From a virus: a DNA stretch of 21,492 nt. Position 1 is the first letter of the stretch. Each line of letters begins with the position of its first letter. Position numbers and translations under genes: made by a program. Below are positions 8,605 to 21,492 of this stretch, one piece after another. Location of the stretch: the IMG/VR virus record IMGVR_UViG_3300030116_000763, positions 1 through 21,492 of that record, one strand, 5' to 3'. The notes under the pieces are model-generated. The model searched no databases. It saw only the letters and a program-made list of their open reading frames with translations, and was not told the DNA's origin.

Positions 8605-9570
8605 ATGGCTTTAAACATTAACGGAACAACTGGTATTTCTGGACTTGATGGTTCAGTTTCAGCACCAGTTTTAACCGGGACAGACAGCAATACCGGAATT
8701 TCATTTGGATCTGATATTGTCAATATAAATACAGGCGGAACTAGAAGAATAAACGTAAACAGTTCTGGTCAGGTTGGTATTGGCTGTGATGCTGGGGTTA
8801 CTCTTGATGTGCAATCTGCTGGTGGTAGTGCTGGTTGGCAAATGAGAGTAAAAAATTCAGGAGGTTCAAATGATAGCGGATTTTTTAGGGATGCTAACGA
8901 TCATTTTGAATGTGTTTTAAGAAACGCCTCTGGTGGACTCTCTTTTATAAAAAATAGCGGTGGTTCATCTACAGCTCGTTTAGAATTTACAGCTCAAGGT
9001 TCTGAAAGAATGAGGATTCAAGAAAATGGAGTTTTATTAATAGACAGTACAGCAGTATATGCAGATGGTTTTATTGGTAGAGGAATACTACAATTAGACG
9101 CTAAACAGGCTAATAGAAATGGTATGACAATAAGAGGCAAAAATTTAACTGGTTCTGCTTTTACATCTAGTACTGTCTGTGCGATTGGTTTTGTTAACAG
9201 TAATGGAGTCGTTGGACAAATACAAATGAGTGGCAGTGGTACCTCTTTTCTCACATCTTCTGATTACAGGCTTAAAGAAAATGCTGTTGCAATATCTGAT
9301 GGTATAACTAGATTAAAAACACTTAAACCATATAGATTTAATTTTAAAGCTGATCCAACTACAACAGTTGATGGATTTTTTGCGCATGAAGTAACAGCAG
9401 TTCCAGAGGCTATATCAGGAACAAAAGATAAAGTTGATTCTGATAACAACATCATGCCTCAAGGAATAGATCAATCTAAACTTGTTCCTTTACTTACTGC
9501 TGCTTTACAAGAGGCAGTAGGTAAAATAGAAACATTAGAAACTAAAGTTGCTGCATTGGAGGCTGCATGA
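8605..9570 (+). CDS. Tail fibre with C-terminal S74 self-cleaving chaperone
   Basis: This 321-aa protein combines a beta-rich fibre part (about 1-215, with VGIG and ERMRIQENGVLLI segments) and a C-terminal peptidase S74 domain, the intramolecular chaperone of endosialidases and many tail spikes. The S74 start motif is seen as TSSDYRLKEN. S219 and K224 are five residues apart, as in the Ser-Lys dyad of the family, so cleavage before S219 would release a chaperone of about 103 residues after trimer folding. Further family features are the LKPYRFNFK and GFFAHEV segments, the Q-G-I-D-x-S-K-L-V-P-L-L core and a terminal coiled coil (IETLETKVAALEAA). The stop overlaps the next start (ATGA). Confidence 0.88.
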   Translation: MALNINGTTGISGLDGSVSAPVLTGTDSNTGISFGSDIVNINTGGTRRINVNSSGQVGIGCDAGVTLDVQSAGGSAGWQMRVKNSGGSNDSGFFRDANDHFECVLRNASGGLSFIKNSGGSSTARLEFTAQGSERMRIQENGVLLIDSTAVYADGFIGRGILQLDAKQANRNGMTIRGKNLTGSAFTSSTVCAIGFVNSNGVVGQIQMSGSGTSFLTSSDYRLKENAVAISDGITRLKTLKPYRFNFKADPTTTVDGFFAHEVTAVPEAISGTKDKVDSDNNIMPQGIDQSKLVPLLTAALQEAVGKIETLETKVAALEAA

Positions 9571-10733
9571 GTTCAATAAAGTTAAAACATTCTGGTGGTA
9601 ATGCTGTTTCAATATCAGCACCAGATACAAACCCATCATCAGACAGAACAGTAAAACTACCAAGTACTGATGTTGACGGAGTAATAACAACAAAAGACTC
9701 GAATGATAATTTGCAATCAGTTACAGGTATTAATGGCAGTCAATTTGCCAATAGAAATATTATTATTAACGGAGAAATGCGAATAGCTCAACGAGCAACT
9801 TCTGTTTCCAGTTTAAGTAGCTCGAATGAAGTTCAAGCTGTAGATAGAATGTTTTGTCGTATTAATGGTGCAGGGACATGGACAGTTTCACAATCAACAG
9901 ATGCACCAGCAGGTTTTGGTCATTCTTTAAAATGGGATTGCACAACTGCTGATGCAAGTCCAGCAGCTAGTGATTTTAATTACATATCGCAAAGATTTGA
10001 AGGATTTAACTTACAACGCTTAAACAAAGGAACTTCTGACGCTGTAAAAACCACTTTAAGTTTTTATGTTAAATCAAACAAAACTGGCACTTTAGCTGTA
10101 TTGCTTACTGACAATGACAACAGCAGACAGATTGGTGCAACTTATACTATTAATTCAGCAAACACTTGGGAAAGAAAAACTATTACTTTTGCTGGTGATA
10201 CTTCTGGTGCTATAGATAATAATAATGGTCATTCAATGAATATTATTTGGTGGCTTGTCGTTGGAACTGATCGGACTTCTGGCACCGCAGCAACTTCTTG
10301 GCAAAGTTCAGTTAATGCAAATGCAGCAGTAGGACATAATGTTAACTTGGCTGATTCAACAAGTAATGAATTTTATATTACAGGTATTCAATGGGAAGTG
10401 GGAGAAGTTGCTACTAATTTTGAACACAGACTTATGGGACAAGATTTAGCAGAGTGTCAAAGATATTATCAAATAGTTAGAGGTGCTACAAGAAACGACT
10501 ATAGATCAAATAATGCTGCTAGGACTGGAAATAACATGAATTATTTTGTTGAGATGAGGGCTAATCCTACAGCTACAACTAAAACTGCTGTTCATTCACA
10601 AAATATGAGTTCAGTATTGTATGAAAGAGTAAGTAAACGTGGATTATTTTTTACTGCTGTTGGTATCGCTACAGCAGGTGGTACTGACGGACAGCAGTTA
10701 TGTAACGATGTTCAACTTAGTGCTGAATTATAG
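9567..10733 (+). CDS. Tail fibre/receptor-binding protein, paralogue 1 (388 aa)
   Basis: This is probably a receptor-binding fibre. The N-terminus (MSSIKLKHSGGNAVSISAP and DRTVKLPS) has the look of a tail-anchoring segment found in marine phage fibres. From NRNIIINGEMRIAQRA (about 62) onward it reads as a jelly-roll, carbohydrate-binding-like beta domain, with INSANTWERKTITFAGDT (about 195-211) and TGIQWEVGEVATNFEHR then AECQRYYQ near 300. The C-terminus varies and ends in LSAEL. The 404-aa protein at 10912-12126 shares this layout and several near-identical stretches, so the two are paralogues. A 55-aa gene follows each of them. The sugar-binding role is inferred. Confidence 0.78.
   Translation: MSSIKLKHSGGNAVSISAPDTNPSSDRTVKLPSTDVDGVITTKDSNDNLQSVTGINGSQFANRNIIINGEMRIAQRATSVSSLSSSNEVQAVDRMFCRINGAGTWTVSQSTDAPAGFGHSLKWDCTTADASPAASDFNYISQRFEGFNLQRLNKGTSDAVKTTLSFYVKSNKTGTLAVLLTDNDNSRQIGATYTINSANTWERKTITFAGDTSGAIDNNNGHSMNIIWWLVVGTDRTSGTAATSWQSSVNANAAVGHNVNLADSTSNEFYITGIQWEVGEVATNFEHRLMGQDLAECQRYYQIVRGATRNDYRSNNAARTGNNMNYFVEMRANPTATTKTAVHSQNMSSVLYERVSKRGLFFTAVGIATAGGTDGQQLCNDVQLSAEL
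10153..10206 (+). repeat. DNA segment shared by fibre paralogues, copy 1
   Basis: This stretch is nearly identical at DNA level to 11447-11500 and differs at only a few, mostly third-position, sites. It encodes the core SANTWERKTITFAGDT of the fibre beta domain. It marks the duplication of the fibre gene and could serve for recombination between copies. Confidence 0.75.
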
Positions 10734-10744
10734 GAGGTTTTATT

Positions 10745-10912
10745 ATGAAGTACGAATGGACTAGCTCAGAAAAACATACGATAAAGTTAACAGATGACAA
10801 TGGTAAGGAATTTTGTATTCCCCCTGATCCAGATAATGTTGACTATCAAGCATATTTGGAATGGGAAGCTATTGATGGAAATGATATAACTATAATGTCG
10901 GAGGCTTACTAA
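10745..10912 (+). CDS. 55-aa IPPDP-motif protein, copy 1 (possible fibre assembly factor)
   Basis: A strong AGGAGG (10732-10737) precedes the ATG at 10745 by seven bases. The 55-aa product has an N-terminal charged part (MKYEWTSSEKHTIKLTDDNG) and the core CIPPDPDNVDYQAYLEW. A core of the type IPxDPxNxDYxxYLxW is known from small proteins beside phage tail fibre genes (XkdW-like and fibre-assembly proteins), so a chaperone or accessory role for the fibre just upstream is plausible but unproven. The stop overlaps the next fibre start (TAATG). A paralogue of exactly the same length lies at 12129-12296. Confidence 0.8.
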   Translation: MKYEWTSSEKHTIKLTDDNGKEFCIPPDPDNVDYQAYLEWEAIDGNDITIMSEAY

Positions 10913-12126
10913 TGTCAGAAATTAAAGTAAATTCAGTTAAAGGTGTAGGAGCTAGTACTGCTGCTATCACTATTAATAATAGTGATGGAACCTGTGATGC
11001 AAACCTTACAGCTATAAGTGGAGGTCAGTTAACACATAGAAATATGATGATAAACGGAGCAATGGAGGTTTCACAAAAACTTAGTTTTGAAACTGGCAGG
11101 GCAAAAACTACAAATGCTGGTGCTGGCGATTTTTATGGGGTTGATATGTTTGTGTTGAGAAATAATACTGGTAACTTAAAACAAACACAATCTACAGATG
11201 CTCCTGATGGTTTTTATTATGCTTTAAGAGTAGACGTAGAATCATCAGGAACTCCCACTGCAAATCATTACAATCTTATTCAAGGAAGTATTGAAGGTAA
11301 CGATATTATTAGAACTGGTTTTGGGACAACAGGAGCAAAAACTTTAACTTTAAGCTGGTACGTTAAGAGTAATCTTACTGGTACATTCACAGGAGCAATT
11401 ATAAATGGAAATCAAGATAGAAGTTATGCTTTCGATTACACTATAAATTCAGCAAATACTTGGGAAAGAAAAACAATAACTTTTGCTGGCGATACTACTG
11501 GAACATGGCACAAAGACAATCAAATGGGAATGAGACTGAATTGGGCTTTAGCGATAGGTTCCACTTATTTAACAAGTACTGCAACGACTTGGCAAGCTGA
11601 TGAACACATGGGAACAACAAATGGGCAGAATGTACTTGCAAGTACAGATAATTATTGGTCAATAACAGGAGTACAGCTTGAAGTTGGTTCTATTGCTACT
11701 ACATTTGAACACAAACCTTGGGCTGATGAATTTAAGAGATGTTGTCGTTATTATCAAAAAACAAGGCAATATGGTCAACCTAATCAAGAAGCACCTCAAT
11801 CATGGAACACGCCAGAAGGTACATTAAGCTCTAATAAAAGAGCTAACTTTTACGACACACATACTTTTTTCCCTAACGGATCAATGCGAGTCAATCCATC
11901 TATTACATTTGTTGGGTCAAATGGCTCTATAAATCATTTTAGATTTGAAATTCCCGGTGTTCGTAATAATGAATTAAATATGGGGGCGCAAACCTTAACA
12001 GTTAACTTAGATGGTGTATTTTTTAGACTTGCACCCGGCTCTGGAACGCCCGATGATACTGGTTATCGAACTGGATCTGGAAATGCGTTTTGCAGAGCTA
12101 CTTTTTTTGTTAATGCGGAGCTTTAA
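10912..12126 (+). CDS. Tail fibre/receptor-binding protein, paralogue 2 (404 aa)
   Basis: This 404-aa protein shares the fibre design of its neighbour at 9567: HRNMMINGAMEVSQ near 43, TINSANTWERKTITFAGDT near 177-194, and TGVQLEVGSIATTFEHK followed by CCRYYQKTRQ. The N-terminus differs (MSEIKVNSVKGVGASTAAI and SDGTCDANL) and resembles another common marine-phage fibre anchor. The C-terminal third is also different and ends in VNAEL, so the copies have diverged where receptor contact would be expected. GGAGG at 10900-10904 and a TAATG overlap with the 55-aa gene set the start. Role inferred from paralogy and context. Confidence 0.78.
   Translation: MSEIKVNSVKGVGASTAAITINNSDGTCDANLTAISGGQLTHRNMMINGAMEVSQKLSFETGRAKTTNAGAGDFYGVDMFVLRNNTGNLKQTQSTDAPDGFYYALRVDVESSGTPTANHYNLIQGSIEGNDIIRTGFGTTGAKTLTLSWYVKSNLTGTFTGAIINGNQDRSYAFDYTINSANTWERKTITFAGDTTGTWHKDNQMGMRLNWALAIGSTYLTSTATTWQADEHMGTTNGQNVLASTDNYWSITGVQLEVGSIATTFEHKPWADEFKRCCRYYQKTRQYGQPNQEAPQSWNTPEGTLSSNKRANFYDTHTFFPNGSMRVNPSITFVGSNGSINHFRFEIPGVRNNELNMGAQTLTVNLDGVFFRLAPGSGTPDDTGYRTGSGNAFCRATFFVNAEL
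11447..11500 (+). repeat. DNA segment shared by fibre paralogues, copy 2
   Basis: This is the partner of 10153-10206 inside the 404-aa fibre gene and encodes the same SANTWERKTITFAGDT core. Regions on either side have diverged much more. Confidence 0.75.
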
Positions 12127-18710: not shown

Positions 18711-18935
18711 ATGTTCCAAAAAATTTGTAATTATCTTTCCATCTTATCTACAGTTCTAGTGCTAGGCATCTTAGGCGGTGGATTCTTTACATACAAGTAT
18801 GTAACGTCAGAACAATTTAAGGCAAAAATGATGAATCAGGTTCTTGAAAATGTGCAAGGACTTATGCCTGACATATTAGAAAACTCGCTACCAAGTACAA
18901 CTGGTAAATCATTACCTTTACCTTTTAAAAAATGA
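18711..18935 (+). CDS. Small single-span membrane protein (74 aa)
   Basis: From the ATG at 18711 the product has 74 residues: a short N-terminus (MFQKICNYLS), one hydrophobic span (about 9-29, ILSTVLVLGILGGGFFTYKYV), then a helical tail ending in LPSTTGKSLPLPFKK. It could be a membrane-anchored accessory protein. A holin role is possible by size but unsupported, as no endolysin is nearby. There is no Shine-Dalgarno sequence before this ATG. The frame stays open upstream to 18582 with protein-like content (VINPAIRYNGAKPTIRKSTI...), so the real product may be longer or made by frameshifting. The stop overlaps the zinc-ribbon gene (ATGA). Confidence 0.65.
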   Translation: MFQKICNYLSILSTVLVLGILGGGFFTYKYVTSEQFKAKMMNQVLENVQGLMPDILENSLPSTTGKSLPLPFKK

Positions 18936-19081
18936 ATTGTTGGCATTGTAAGTCAGAATTGATTTGGGGTGGCGATAAAGACTTGGAAGAAGACACGCAG
19001 TATTCTATGGTCACAAATTTATCTTGCCCAAAATGTTTTAGCTTAGTAGAAGTGTATCTACCAAGAAATGCCTACGACTGA
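18932..19081 (+). CDS. Zinc-ribbon microprotein (49 aa)
   Basis: This 49-aa product is MNCWHCKSELIWGGD..., with two CxxC pairs (C3-C6 and C32-C35, the second in LSCPKCFSLVEVY) spaced as in a zinc ribbon. I recall similar proteins starting MNCWHC in marine cyanophages, where their role is unknown. It could bind nucleic acid or a protein partner. The start is in an ATGA overlap with the membrane protein gene, and the end overlaps the next gene by 14 bases, so it is tightly embedded in the operon. Four correctly spaced cysteines and overlaps on both sides make it a convincing gene despite its size. Confidence 0.82.
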   Translation: MNCWHCKSELIWGGDKDLEEDTQYSMVTNLSCPKCFSLVEVYLPRNAYD

Positions 19082-19712
19082 AATACCTAATATTTCTATA
19101 CCAGAAATAAAAATAGATATTCCATTACACATTCCATATCAAGTTTTAAATGTACCTCCACCATCTATAAAACTGCCGGGTTGCGTAAGGTATCACAGAG
19201 ATGCGTCACCTAAAAATACTGCTTTATATAATGATGATCCTACAGGAACAATGATTTCTTGCCCTTATGGGTCAATGCCAACTTTTGAACCTTTATTGTA
19301 TGACAGAAGAAGAATAGACATTGTTGAATCAAAAGAGCAAGAGAAAAGACAACAAGCAAACGAAACAATACAAGCACCTACAAGTAATCCAGAGTTACCA
19401 AAAGAAAAGAAAAAAATAGTTATACCAGAATGTCCGGGGTCAAAAGACCAGCGAGTAGGAGATTACAGAAATTCTAAAAAGCTTGAAATCGTAGTATCTC
19501 ATCGTTTAGATGGGACAGAGTGCATAACTATCTATGAAGACGTACCCTTCAAAGATCAATACATCCCTTCTGTTAATCAATTTGTTGGTGTTTTTAGTCT
19601 TGCTCTGGTCGGTGCTTCTGCACCGCTTGTTTTACAGCTAGTTAAACCTCTTGTTAAGCAAGTAATGACAAAACTGACAAAGAAGAAAAAAGACAAAAAA
19701 CCGAAGGTATAA
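19068..19712 (+). CDS. Pro-rich protein with C-terminal membrane segment (214 aa)
   Basis: This 214-aa protein opens with a Pro/Ile repeat-like region (IPNISIPEIKIDIPLHIPY). Conserved-looking blocks follow: LPGCVRYHRDAS, TMISCPYGSMP, then a charged linker (about 85-118), VIPECPGSKDQRVGDYRNSK and SHRLDGTECITIYEDVPF. One hydrophobic segment (about 172-192, FVGVFSLALVGASAPLVLQL) precedes a very basic tail (KLTKKKKDKKPKV). The four cysteines are C39, C65, C122 and C152. I recall proteins with this layout in marine cyanophages but no function is known. The C-terminal anchor suggests a membrane or virion surface location. It is the last gene of the plus-strand unit, 24 bases before the terminator stem. 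Confidence 0.75.
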   Translation: MPTTEIPNISIPEIKIDIPLHIPYQVLNVPPPSIKLPGCVRYHRDASPKNTALYNDDPTGTMISCPYGSMPTFEPLLYDRRRIDIVESKEQEKRQQANETIQAPTSNPELPKEKKKIVIPECPGSKDQRVGDYRNSKKLEIVVSHRLDGTECITIYEDVPFKDQYIPSVNQFVGVFSLALVGASAPLVLQLVKPLVKQVMTKLTKKKKDKKPKV

Positions 19713-19736
19713 ACATAAGCAAGCTTTTTTACAAGC

Positions 19737-19768
19737 CCCTTACAGACGATTCTGAAGGGACTTTTTTT
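19737..19768 (+). terminator. Rho-independent terminator at convergent junction
   Basis: CCCTTACAGA (19737-19746), loop CGAT and TCTGAAGGG (19751-19759) form a nine-pair stem with one bulged A, followed by seven Ts (19762-19768). It would stop plus-strand transcription from the tail and fibre genes before the opposing operon. The T run overlaps the stop codon of the minus-strand gene. Read from the other strand the stem lacks a good T tract, so it is probably one-way. Confidence 0.88.
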
Positions 19769-20432
19769 ATGGTTTTAGGTTAATTTTGTGATTATGAGGC
19801 AAAACTTGATTTGCTTTTGGCACTATCTCTATATCAGAGCATAAATCGTAATATGGGCTATCTTTTTTAAATCTGATACCAGCAATCGCCTTTTCTCCAC
19901 AATGACGTAACCTTGCCATATGCCAATCAAGTTCTTTGTTCTTCAATATTTGCTTGTTTATATCATTTTGCACTTGCGCTGCTTCTCTGCATTGCTTTGT
20001 AAGTTTTCTGTCTAAAGGTATAGAAAAATTTAGAGTAATACCTGTACCGAGTGCATAGCTATCTTTATTTGTTCCAGAATAATTTTGTTGCATAAATAAA
20101 ATTTTACCCGGATTGTCTGGAGTTCCATCTCCTATAGGATTTCCATCATCATCAAAATCACCTACTATATCAGTTTGATCGTAATAAGGAGTCTCATAAT
20201 AATCTCGATATGGCTTTCTGTAGTTTGAGTTAAAAGTTGTAAAAGGAGTTATTGTCATCATTGCACCTTGGCAAACAACACCACCTCCATATTGGTTCGT
20301 ATGAAAACTACCATTATTTACATTCCAGTTTTGATTAGTAACAGATCCGCTATTGCTTTGGCTAACAGCATTAGCTAAAGCACTTGCTGGTAAAAAAGCT
20401 ATTGAAAGACAGAGGTAGTGGTAACTACGGAT
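19767..20432 (-). CDS. Secreted protein with four cysteines, start uncertain (about 221 aa)
   Basis: The reading frame contains a clear Sec signal sequence (YLCLSIAFLPASALA, cleavage near ALA-NA). A mature domain follows: AVSQSNSGSVTNQNWNVNNG, GGGVVCQGAMMTITPF, an acidic loop DFDDDGNPIGDGTPD that resembles a calcium-binding loop, SLxxGxxxxFSIPLDRK-like strands, a helical KQCREAAQVQNDINKQI part, RHCGEK, and YYDLCSDIEIVPK ending in HNHKINLKP. Four cysteines in the mature part suit a periplasmic, disulfide-bonded protein. I recall related proteins in cyanophages with no known role. No ATG, GTG or TTG lies in frame near the signal peptide. I place the start at an ATC (20432) as the best fit; the longer frame to 20573 is unlikely because it reads antisense-like residues out of the neighbour gene. 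Confidence 0.65.
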   Translation of the reverse strand: MRSYHYLCLSIAFLPASALANAVSQSNSGSVTNQNWNVNNGSFHTNQYGGGVVCQGAMMTITPFTTFNSNYRKPYRDYYETPYYDQTDIVGDFDDDGNPIGDGTPDNPGKILFMQQNYSGTNKDSYALGTGITLNFSIPLDRKLTKQCREAAQVQNDINKQILKNKELDWHMARLRHCGEKAIAGIRFKKDSPYYDLCSDIEIVPKANQVLPHNHKINLKP

Positions 20433-20821
20433 TCCGTTTCTATGGTGCGATTTATGGTTGTGACGTTTTGAAGGCCGGGTGCTGAATATGTTTCTGTAAA
20501 TTGAAAGGCATCTCCTGATGTTGGATTTGTAAGAGTCCAATCTGGTTTTGTTGTCATATCTGCTCCTTTCCATGTGTATGTTTGACCTCCTACTGTTCCT
20601 GTAACATTAATCGCATCTGGAGAAATATCTCCTGACGCAGAAATGCCTGTACCTGTAACTGTATATTCATAGCCAGTTTTATAGTCTTTGCTAGTAACCG
20701 ATTCTGTAATTGTAGATTGGGTATTAGTCGTTGAAGACATAGTACCGGTGGTAAAATTTGGTACGATATTTGCGTTAGCTGGCAAGGCATATATAAATAA
20801 CAGTAATAAGAGTTTTTGCAT
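20399..20821 (-). CDS. Secreted beta-rich protein (140 aa)
   Basis: The product begins with a signal peptide (MQKLLLLLFIYALPANA, cleavage before NIV). The mature part is Thr/Ser/Gly-rich and beta-stranded, with YEYTVTGTGISASGD, TVGGQTYTWKG, GDAFQFTETYS and INRTIETESVVTT. It shares the pattern Y-x-V-x-GTG-I/V and a G-D/E-x-F-x-[FY] block with its 159-aa neighbour, so they may be distant paralogues. It starts six bases after the upstream stop (TAA TGAGTT ATG). Its last residues (SVFQ) and stop lie inside the signal-peptide coding part of the next gene, read in another frame, which is unusual. Function unknown; export to the periplasm or outer membrane is likely. Confidence 0.75.
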   Translation of the reverse strand: MQKLLLLLFIYALPANANIVPNFTTGTMSSTTNTQSTITESVTSKDYKTGYEYTVTGTGISASGDISPDAINVTGTVGGQTYTWKGADMTTKPDWTLTNPTSGDAFQFTETYSAPGLQNVTTINRTIETESVVTTTSVFQ

Positions 20822-20827
20822 AACTCA

Positions 20828-21307
20828 TTAGTCAACAGTTACAGAAGTTACATAAGAACCTGTTGCAGTTGTACCAGCCGACCCTGCTGTTATGGTAATT
20901 ACATGGTTATCGACAGTACCAGCTAAATTCGTAGCGGTGCCTCCACTCGTACTTGTTAAGTCTCCAAAGGGGCTTACCTCACCAACAGTCAGAGATGTTG
21001 CAATAGTATCTCCAGTTGTATGTGAAACTGTGTATGTAAAGCTTTCGCCATCTGTAAGCTGGCTGGCTGTAATTGGTGTGTAAGCGTTTATGCCGTTAGT
21101 AACTGCTCCTAGACCGCCTACCGAGCCAGCAGTTGTTCCATCTGTTGTATTAACTCCTGTTCCAGAAACGGAATATGAATTACCAATACGATCAGCAGTA
21201 GTTCCAGCAGCAGCAACTTCTAACTTTACGCTAGAACTGATTTGAGATGTTATATCAGCATAAGCTGGTGCTGATACAAGAAACAAAAACGGAAGAAGTT
21301 TTTTCAT
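20828..21307 (-). CDS. Secreted beta-rich protein (159 aa)
   Basis: The product starts with a textbook signal peptide (MKKLLPFLFLVSAPAYA, cleavage before DIT). The mature part is low in charge and rich in Thr, Ser, Gly and Ala, with SYSVSGTGVNTTDGTTAGSV, GESFTYTVSHTTGD and VDNHVITITAGSAG segments that suggest a beta sandwich or adhesin-like fold. There are no cysteines. It overlaps the gene before it (ATGA) and is closely followed by the 140-aa gene, so the genes form one minus-strand operon. I recall comparable proteins in marine phages labelled only as structural or hypothetical. Whether it is packed in virions or acts in the host envelope cannot be told. Confidence 0.78.
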   Translation of the reverse strand: MKKLLPFLFLVSAPAYADITSQISSSVKLEVAAAGTTADRIGNSYSVSGTGVNTTDGTTAGSVGGLGAVTNGINAYTPITASQLTDGESFTYTVSHTTGDTIATSLTVGEVSPFGDLTSTSGGTATNLAGTVDNHVITITAGSAGTTATGSYVTSVTVD

Positions 21308-21492
21308 TTTTTAGATTTGGGGTCGATTACTTCAGCACCTTCTATTTTGATAGGTGTTATTACCCTTATAGTCTGAACCATACCCTCGCTTTCTGCAACT
21401 TTGCTGTCTTTCTCACTACGTTTTTTTGACCCCTCCAAACCAAATGTTGCAAGTGCGCCTGTTAATAGCGAAGCTGGAAATGTAATATCTTT
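21304..21492 (-). CDS. C-terminal part of first visible minus-strand gene (62 aa, partial)
   Basis: The minus strand is open from the window edge to a TGA at 21304-21306, giving the last 62 residues of a gene. It reads KDITFPASLLTGALATFGLE, a hydrophobic stretch that could be a membrane segment or membrane-binding helix, then a charged linker (GSKKRSEKDSKVAESEG) and a short beta end (VQTIRVITPIKIEGAEVIDP). The stop overlaps the start of the 159-aa gene (ATGA), which supports it as a real gene in the same operon. The family is not recognised and the N-terminus is outside the window. Confidence 0.7.
   Translation of the reverse strand, partial: KDITFPASLLTGALATFGLEGSKKRSEKDSKVAESEGMVQTIRVITPIKIEGAEVIDPKSKK

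Follow-up and report, generated by a model that had tools for sequence, protein, structure and literature searches.

Gene content of the locus

The subject of this study is a cassette of genes for exported proteins at one end of the virus record IMGVR_UViG_3300030116_000763, the whole stretch of which (21,492 nucleotides (nt), positions 1 to 21,492) was analysed and is hereafter called the window. Four tightly spaced open reading frames (ORFs) occupy positions 19767-21492 of the minus strand and oppose the lambda-type tail operon that makes up the remaining window (tape measure, minor tail proteins, gpJ and tail fibres), an arrangement already noticed in the initial annotation and confirmed by the ORF list (Table 1). 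In order of transcription they encode the C-terminal half of a DUF6450 protein and proteins of the gp167, gp166 and gp165 types, the names gp161 to gp167 being those of the homologues in phage Syn9. Among the best matches of gpJ are the single-cell virus AG-345-A17 (A17 below; 69%, covering 47% of the protein) and three Prochlorococcus siphophages, MED4-184, P-HS2 and MED4-117 (37-39%), so that the window most likely comes from a Prochlorococcus siphovirus.

The three exported proteins belong to families that profile searches recover with ease: gp165 matches phrog_848/1755 (E 2.9e-66), gp167 matches phrog_564 (E 8.7e-47), and gp166 scores 107 bits against PF19847 (DUF6322), whose curated cut-off is 30.6. 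The latter two proteins are paralogous to each other, with 29% identity (E 2e-6). Signal sequences were assessed by visual inspection; the three in the window have A-x-A at their ends, the next residue being D, N and N, and none has a Cys at +1, that is, the lipobox expected of an outer-membrane spanin (o-spanin) is lacking. The initial annotation had claimed three Sec signal sequences, and the stretches it quoted are indeed present, but that of gp165, YLCLSIAFLPASALA, does not stand at a gene start and has no ATG, GTG or TTG nearby. Signal sequences are kept in the relatives as well, so that the loss which the initial annotation had named as a refutation is not borne out, and the record of the T7-like phage P-SSP7 carries a SignalP note on gp44, its gp166 homologue.

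AlphaFold models built from fetched alignments gave a mean confidence (pLDDT) of 69 for gp165, with two long hairpins and a 40-residue helix, and of 80 for gp166, with two strands of about 23 residues each plus hairpins. Against BFVD, the gp166 model returned five viral proteins at E <0.001, two of them bearing phage names (an uncultured phage and a Synechococcus phage) and three unnamed. Weak structural matches to ring- or pore-forming beta proteins were also obtained and are not used as evidence. The description of an exported, mostly beta-rich set thus holds, together with its gene order, which is conserved across marine phages (see below).

Table 1. Features of the cassette and its surroundings in the window
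Feature	Position	Strand	Evidence
DUF6450 membrane protein, C-terminal part, cut by the window end; phrog_721/2714, Syn9 gp161 / P-SSP7 gp43 type; holin-like candidate	21304..21492	-	profile matches; full-length relatives L035:4751-5110, L086:10697-11059
gp167-type exported protein, phrog_564, 159 aa; signal sequence MKKLLPFLFLVSAPAYA, then DITS	20828..21307	-	profile match
gp166-type exported protein, phrog_650, PF19847 DUF6322, 140 aa, gp167 paralogue	20399..20821	-	profile matches
gp165-type exported protein, phrog_848/1755; ATG 20571-20573 nested in gp166; signal segment ~20373-20414; mature part from ~20372; four invariant Cys, C-terminal HxH	19767..20573	-	profile match, alignment
Dual-coded stretch, gp166 frame 0 and gp165 frame -1	20399..20573	-	zero -1 stops in last 45-50 gp166 codons, 262 distinct sequences
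GGAGGT, Shine-Dalgarno-like, 11 nt before nested gp165 start	20585..20590	-	sequence
Hairpin, T on one flank strand, A on the other; likely two-way terminator between convergent blocks	19726..19770	.	folding
gp164-type protein, phrog_570; Pro-rich N-terminal region, four invariant Cys, C-terminal hydrophobic segment, Lys-rich tail	19068..19712	+	profile match, relatives
phrog_568 (label 'plasmid stability'), small protein, one N-terminal hydrophobic segment	18711..18935	+	profile match, relatives

A start codon nested in gp166

The start of gp165 was studied in 320 related IMG/VR loci, which fall into four groups, namely window-like (W), Syn1-like (K), P-HM2-like (H) and AG-345-A17-like (A), and which with the window and 15 loci from phage records amount to 336 sequences. 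Twelve sequences with no detectable gp166 are uncounted, and one locus in which gp166 is called in another frame (L098) was dropped before the counts. As the sequences are related, the counts are not independent events, although the four divergent groups and the T7-like phages agree.

In 323 of the 324 loci having both genes, L098 being the exception, gp165 lies in the -1 frame relative to gp166, an overlap of the kind (adjacent, overlapping or embedded genes) by which spanin genes are recognised. The first in-frame ATG of gp165 in the window stands 172 nt before the gp166 stop codon; elsewhere the start is found 136-175 nt before that stop, and up to about 300 nt in some lineages. An ATG, GTG or TTG occurs in 54 of 323 loci within the interval that runs from 60 nt ahead of the gp166 stop to the start of mature gp165, the listed ones falling within or after the hydrophobic segment.

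The reading frames bear a clear mark of this overlap. Across the last 45 gp166 codons the -1 frame is open in all 262 distinct sequences, with no stop observed against some 472 expected from synonymous codon use (133 in W, 104 in K, 114 in H and 121 in A). Over the same codons, stops in the +1 frame number 174, 147, 110 and 470 (W, K, H and A) against 99, 131, 139 and 297 expected, W and A being above expectation, and stops are near expectation in the preceding 45 gp166 codons and at the end of gp167. A position-resolved count places the boundary of the stop-free zone about 50-60 codons before the gp166 stop in all four groups, and an NTG start stands at this boundary in 287 of 289 distinct junctions, the two lacking it being L055 and L063. 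In W, K and H the start is an ATG formed from a Trp codon after a codon ending in A (185 of 186 listed cases, the remaining one being GTG); in group A it is TTG, and the preceding codon ends in T in 75 of 75. A GGAGG- or GGAGTG-like sequence lies 10-11 nt before the nested start in most members of W, K and A, H having mostly GGTGTG. Loss of the usual Trp codon, for example in P-SSM7 and S-SM2, goes with an open frame and a first ATG that reach back to about -300; P-SSP2 has a short signal sequence beginning at an ATG at -64, and P-SSP7 has kept only a GTG, at -109.

By this conservation, the -1 frame is translated and the nested start of gp165 is real. With an NTG inside gp166 as its start, gp165 carries before the signal sequence a long and basic extension, 45-58 residues in the common types, which is dual-coded with the end of gp166. 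Programmed -1 frameshifting, by which gp165 would be made as a gp166-gp165 fusion, was the first idea on its origin and would suit the nearly invariable -1 relation, the lack of a start codon near the signal segment and the few loci with no usual start, yet it is very improbable, for the -1 frame opens only near the conserved NTG, most members have the Shine-Dalgarno-like sequence upstream of that codon, the start moves with the open frame in P-SSM7, S-SM2 and P-SSP2 and persists as the GTG of P-SSP7, and inspection by eye of the gp166 end of the listed junctions, with no systematic motif search made, revealed no conserved slippery heptamer. An ATA start overlapping the gp166 stop was likewise rejected, as it is not conserved (e.g. 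in A17 and P-HM2). In three window-like loci (L055, L063 and L064) the open -1 frame of gp165 contains no ATG, GTG or TTG anywhere; these loci may use a non-standard start or hold a broken gene.

The nested start explains why the annotated starts of gp165 differ so widely, or why the gene is missed altogether (S-RSM4, S-SCSM1); with its start misplaced or overlooked, gp165 can escape proteomic searches made against deposited annotations.

Distribution and gene order

In a tblastn search of 50,697 phage records, gp165 was found in 423, gp167 in 404 and gp166 in 401, and the organism and host tallies of these matches consist of phages of marine Synechococcus and Prochlorococcus and of marine virus records. 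The genes are thus more than chance ORFs, and the undescribed system that the initial annotation had seen in the window is not peculiar to it: its families already have entries of unknown function among the PHROGs and the Pfam DUFs. By the sequence matches, the module is present in four unrelated types of phages of marine picocyanobacteria, namely T4-like, TIM5-like, lambda-like (the window and MED4-117) and T7-like (P-SSP7). With P-SSP7 gp45 as the query, 453 records matched; of the 60 matches listed, 51 are records of 37-48 kb. Among cellular genomes (84,980 species), nine loci were found, eight on contigs of metagenome bins and one on a Prochlorococcus single-cell contig, for which phage contigs are the simplest reading.

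Gene order is kept as well. The convergent layout recurs in Syn9 (gp161-164 against gp165-167, then hsp20), in S-SM1 and in the TIM5-like S-TIM54, and the gp164-type gene lies on the strand opposite gp165 in 312 of the 317 loci that have both. In MED4-117, DUF6450, gp167, gp166 and gp165 face phrog_570 and phrog_568, the latter being part of the module in the larger phages. P-SSP7, P-SSP2 and NATL1A-7 also have the cassette, and the T7-like S-TIP37 has a gp165 match; in P-SSP7 the cassette is on a single strand, between the tail-fibre genes and the small terminase, as gp42 (Pro-rich, with an anchor), gp43 (DUF6450), gp44 (gp166) and gp45 (gp165).

The hairpin between the convergent blocks of the window folds on both strands (-12.0 and -17.1 kcal/mol; z -4.4 and -6.5), and it is absent from the output of a simple terminator scan. 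A stretch of 77 bp around it (19696-19772) is 79% identical to DNA of the T7-like cyanophages P-SSP2 and P-SSP3; the P-SSP2 counterpart lies directly after gp165, which hints at exchange between unrelated phages sharing hosts.

Other neighbours may be mentioned here. Nucleases stand beside the module in several loci (L086:13636-14103, L090:6016-6477 and L096:2424-2885) and are of the PF00565 SNase type in the S-SM2 and Syn1 records; an ORF beside the module of A17 is SNase-like by eye. In the freshwater cyanophage DSL-LC03 (L087:6153-8405), a divergent gp167-gp166-gp165 set has genes for an autotransporter beta-barrel and an endolysin within a few genes of it. Within the window, a 49-residue protein with two CxxC pairs is encoded between phrog_568 and gp164 (18932-19081, plus strand), and the DNA of its gene matches pelagiphage HTVC027P and two marine single-cell viruses. 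Two adjacent tail-fibre genes (9567-10733 and 10912-12126, plus strand) both match phrog_4492 and are probably the product of a duplication.

Membrane partners

The truncated ORF at the end of the window scores 26.3 bits against PF20048 (DUF6450; cut-off 25). What had been described as a fourth gene with a hydrophobic stretch is accordingly a membrane protein, to be corrected to the C-terminal half of a DUF6450 protein; its P-SSP7 relative, gp43, bears the record note '2 transmembrane regions'.

On the plus strand, gp164 matches phrog_570 (E 1.1e-37), and its four Cys positions are conserved in 289 of 289, 291 of 291, 296 of 296 and 301 of 303 sequences. A single hydrophobic segment was found in 263 of 317 relatives; it is C-terminal and, in the window copy, followed by the Lys-rich tail. 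From the positive-inside rule, the N-terminal part of gp164 would face the periplasm (N-out, C-in). The cysteines of gp164 and gp165 fit, as expected, domains that would reside in an oxidising compartment. P-SSP7 gp42, which is likewise Pro-rich with a C-terminal anchor, aligns with the gp164 profile over the anchor region with a probability of 88% (hhalign; control profiles 0.3% and 0.1%).

The phrog_568 protein has its hydrophobic segment near residue 4-5, a single segment being found in 250 of 255 relatives, and no link to an o-spanin was seen. Its label 'plasmid stability', which has spread from one cyanophage record to the next and into a paper, is doubtful; because of its position in the module, a role in the envelope is more likely.

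Expression timing

The motif NTAAATA stands ahead of gp167, in most cases 28-35 nt from the start codon, in 50 of the 52 distinct upstream regions from the T4-like group K and in 29 of 49 from group H, the background being 5% for both. It is a loose form of the late promoter motif published for S-PM2, NATAAATA (PMC2984593). The initial annotation had taken the separate strand as a sign of separate timing, a view that these late-promoter motifs in T4-like members do not favour, nor does P-SSP7, in which the same genes are on the strand of the tail and terminase genes.

A possible role in lysis

The cassette may serve the late disruption of the host envelope at lysis, the reading that I favour and to which I would give a chance slightly short of even. 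Conservation, the nested start and the late-promoter motif are features of the sequences themselves; localisation, complex formation and a function in lysis are what I infer in the following scheme. Late in infection, DUF6450 would act in the inner membrane as a holin-like or holin-helping protein, while gp164 (N-out, C-in) and phrog_568 would also sit in the inner membrane and extend into the periplasm. gp165, gp166 and gp167 would be exported to the periplasm or the outer membrane, and the conserved cysteines of gp164 and gp165 would become oxidised in the periplasm. Jointly these proteins would break the envelope, doing the job of Rz/Rz1 spanins with unrelated proteins and other anchors, and the nested start would keep gp166 and gp165 linked in amount, rather like Rz1 nested in Rz.

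In favour of this late envelope disruption, the module is carried by phages regarded as devoid of spanins, its position in P-SSP7 is suggestive, and the layout proposed here is that of a spanin design with a C-terminal anchor; the conservation, the nested start, the late-promoter motif, the invariant cysteines and the untagged module genes of S-SCSM1 (see below) also count for it. As to position, between the tail-fibre genes and the small terminase, where P-SSP7 has gp42-gp45, T7 has holin 17.5 and Rz/Rz1 18.5/18.7.

As to the phages without an identifiable spanin, a survey by Kongari and colleagues (PMC6139136) lists them and counts 20 of 91 as infecting Prochlorococcus or Synechococcus; it also notes that an inner-membrane protein with a C-terminal segment and an outer-membrane protein could serve as spanins, a design as yet unexplored. 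Of the marine picocyanobacterial phages in its Table 10, 22 by my own count with Pf-WMP4 left out and with P60, S-CBS4 and S-ShM2 included though not looked up, 16 match at least one module gene: P-SSP7, P-HM1, P-HM2, P-RSM4 (gp164 only), P-SSM2, P-SSM4, P-SSM7, Syn1, Syn33, S-RSM4, S-SM1, S-SM2, S-SSM5, S-SSM7, Syn19 and Syn9.

Several observations weigh against a role in lysis. Profile searches of whole genomes detected neither gp165 nor gp166 in S-PM2, Syn5 and PSS2, which are on the same spanin-less list, nor in S-SZBM1 and S-CREM2; the cassette is hence not the sole answer. In T4-like phages it adjoins replication or other genes rather than known lysis genes, and NTAAATA is rare before gp167 in the two groups that have DUF6450 immediately ahead of that gene, W (4 of 54) and A (1 of 58). 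No enzymatic motif and no lipobox were found in the module, and the gp165 and gp166 models, which are weak, had no match in the PDB below E 0.001 and none with a Z of at least 5. In a simple KD19 scan of 254 DUF6450 relatives, two hydrophobic segments were detected in 52, one in 170 and none in 32. gp164 has no N-terminal signal sequence, so that its N-out topology is deduced from the cysteines together with the positive-inside rule, and P-SSP7 gp42 resembles it over the C-terminal anchor only and has no Cys.

Among the alternatives, a late remodelling of the host surface is unlikely, if still to be reckoned with; here the exported beta-rich proteins would coat or change the outer membrane, against adsorption of sibling phages or sticking of virions to debris, or would alter the envelope during infection. 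That the proteins are exported, conserved and specific to a host group would agree with it, the late-promoter motif is compatible with action at the surface, and certain phages, among them some that infect the estuarine strain CB0101, have no cassette, as might be expected of functions specific to a host surface. Superinfection exclusion, however, usually requires early expression, and the position in P-SSP7 and the DUF6450 neighbour point to lysis; a role in lysis accords better with late expression and the P-SSP7 gene order than either surface coating or superinfection exclusion does.

Improbable, and more so than surface remodelling, is that the exported proteins are virion or appendage proteins maturing in the periplasm and joining the particle at release, a pick-up that the initial annotation had suggested. 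The window genes do adjoin tail genes, and beta-rich repeats would suit appendages, but none of the three families matches a PDB chain at a significant E-value in sequence searches, and the record of S-SCSM1 speaks against it. For this phage, 45 virion proteins were identified by mass spectrometry according to its description (PMC9602691). Its record tags 47 coding sequences as 'virion protein' (in the stretches 1-100 kb, 120-169 kb and 179-229 kb), many of them otherwise unknown, and the tag presumably denotes detection in particles; the five annotated module genes, SSCSM1_163-167, do not bear it. gp165 could not have been detected there, being unannotated, with a strong match between _165 and _166. 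Other sources on virion content were set aside: ORF174 and ORF176, virion proteins of S-CREM2, are plausible in size and order as gp167 and gp165 and do not match in sequence; the virion table of S-SZBM1 is uninformative, that phage having no module; and the names in the S-SM1 record are no sign of detection, since T4-GC 969, detected according to the text of the paper, is called hypothetical there.

Taken as a whole, the interpretation in the initial annotation stands as regards an exported, beta-rich and conserved set, and is unsupported as regards novelty confined to the window and a timing class of its own, pick-up on the virion being disfavoured. A role in lysis admits of a bolder version, possible though rather doubtful, in which the cassette is a new, non-spanin machine for breaching the envelope, exchanged among T4-, TIM5-, lambda- and T7-like phages of marine picocyanobacteria. 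It would consist of exported beta proteins with disulfide bonds, two of which come from overlapping frames that would tie their amounts, and of a Pro-rich inner-membrane protein anchored by its C-terminus.

How cyanophages lyse Prochlorococcus and Synechococcus is largely unexplained, and a cassette shared across four unrelated phage types offers named genes to test and makes a good candidate for the as yet missing machinery of break-out through the cyanobacterial cell envelope. A published survey raises the view that disruption of the outer membrane is perhaps unneeded in marine picocyanobacterial hosts. A non-spanin machine, if true, would explain how many 'spanin-less' cyanophages open that membrane. 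The families were already known, their function being unnamed; the cassette across lineages, the nested gp165 start and the role in lysis are new as far as the searched literature shows, and in that literature, which leaves out most subscription papers, no paper on the function of the cassette was found.

Comparison with known systems

The window proteins belong to PHROG families 848/1755, 650, 564, 570, 568 and 721 and to Pfam DUF6322 and DUF6450, entries which carry no function except for the label of phrog_568. Their homologues in T4-like cyanophages, Syn9 gp161-gp167 or T4-GC 218, 414, 219 and 234-237, follow the same convergent order. Unlike the Syn9 type, the window and A17 have DUF6450 on the strand of the exported genes, and the window has the small CxxC protein in place of gp163 and its block after a lambda-type tail operon. 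P-SSP7 gp42-gp45 resemble the window in having a gp164-like anchor, DUF6450, gp166 and gp165 in one operon with the same -1 overlap; they differ in lying on a single strand, in a shorter gp165, and in giving no gp167 or phrog_568 match in the stretch searched.

With regard to holins, class II members are small, with two transmembrane segments and a charged C-terminus, to be set against a DUF6450 family in which the gp43 record notes two segments and the scan found as many in 52 of 254. The Rz/Rz1 spanins (lambda; T7 18.5/18.7) differ from the cassette, which has no lipobox or lipoprotein, comprises three exported beta-rich proteins and shows no sequence relation to them; the inner-membrane spanin has an N-terminal transmembrane segment, whereas that of gp164 is C-terminal and that of phrog_568 N-terminal. 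What the cassette would share with Rz/Rz1 is a set of small late envelope proteins from overlapping or nested genes and the position that T7 gives to its spanins and holin and T7-like cyanophages give to the cassette.

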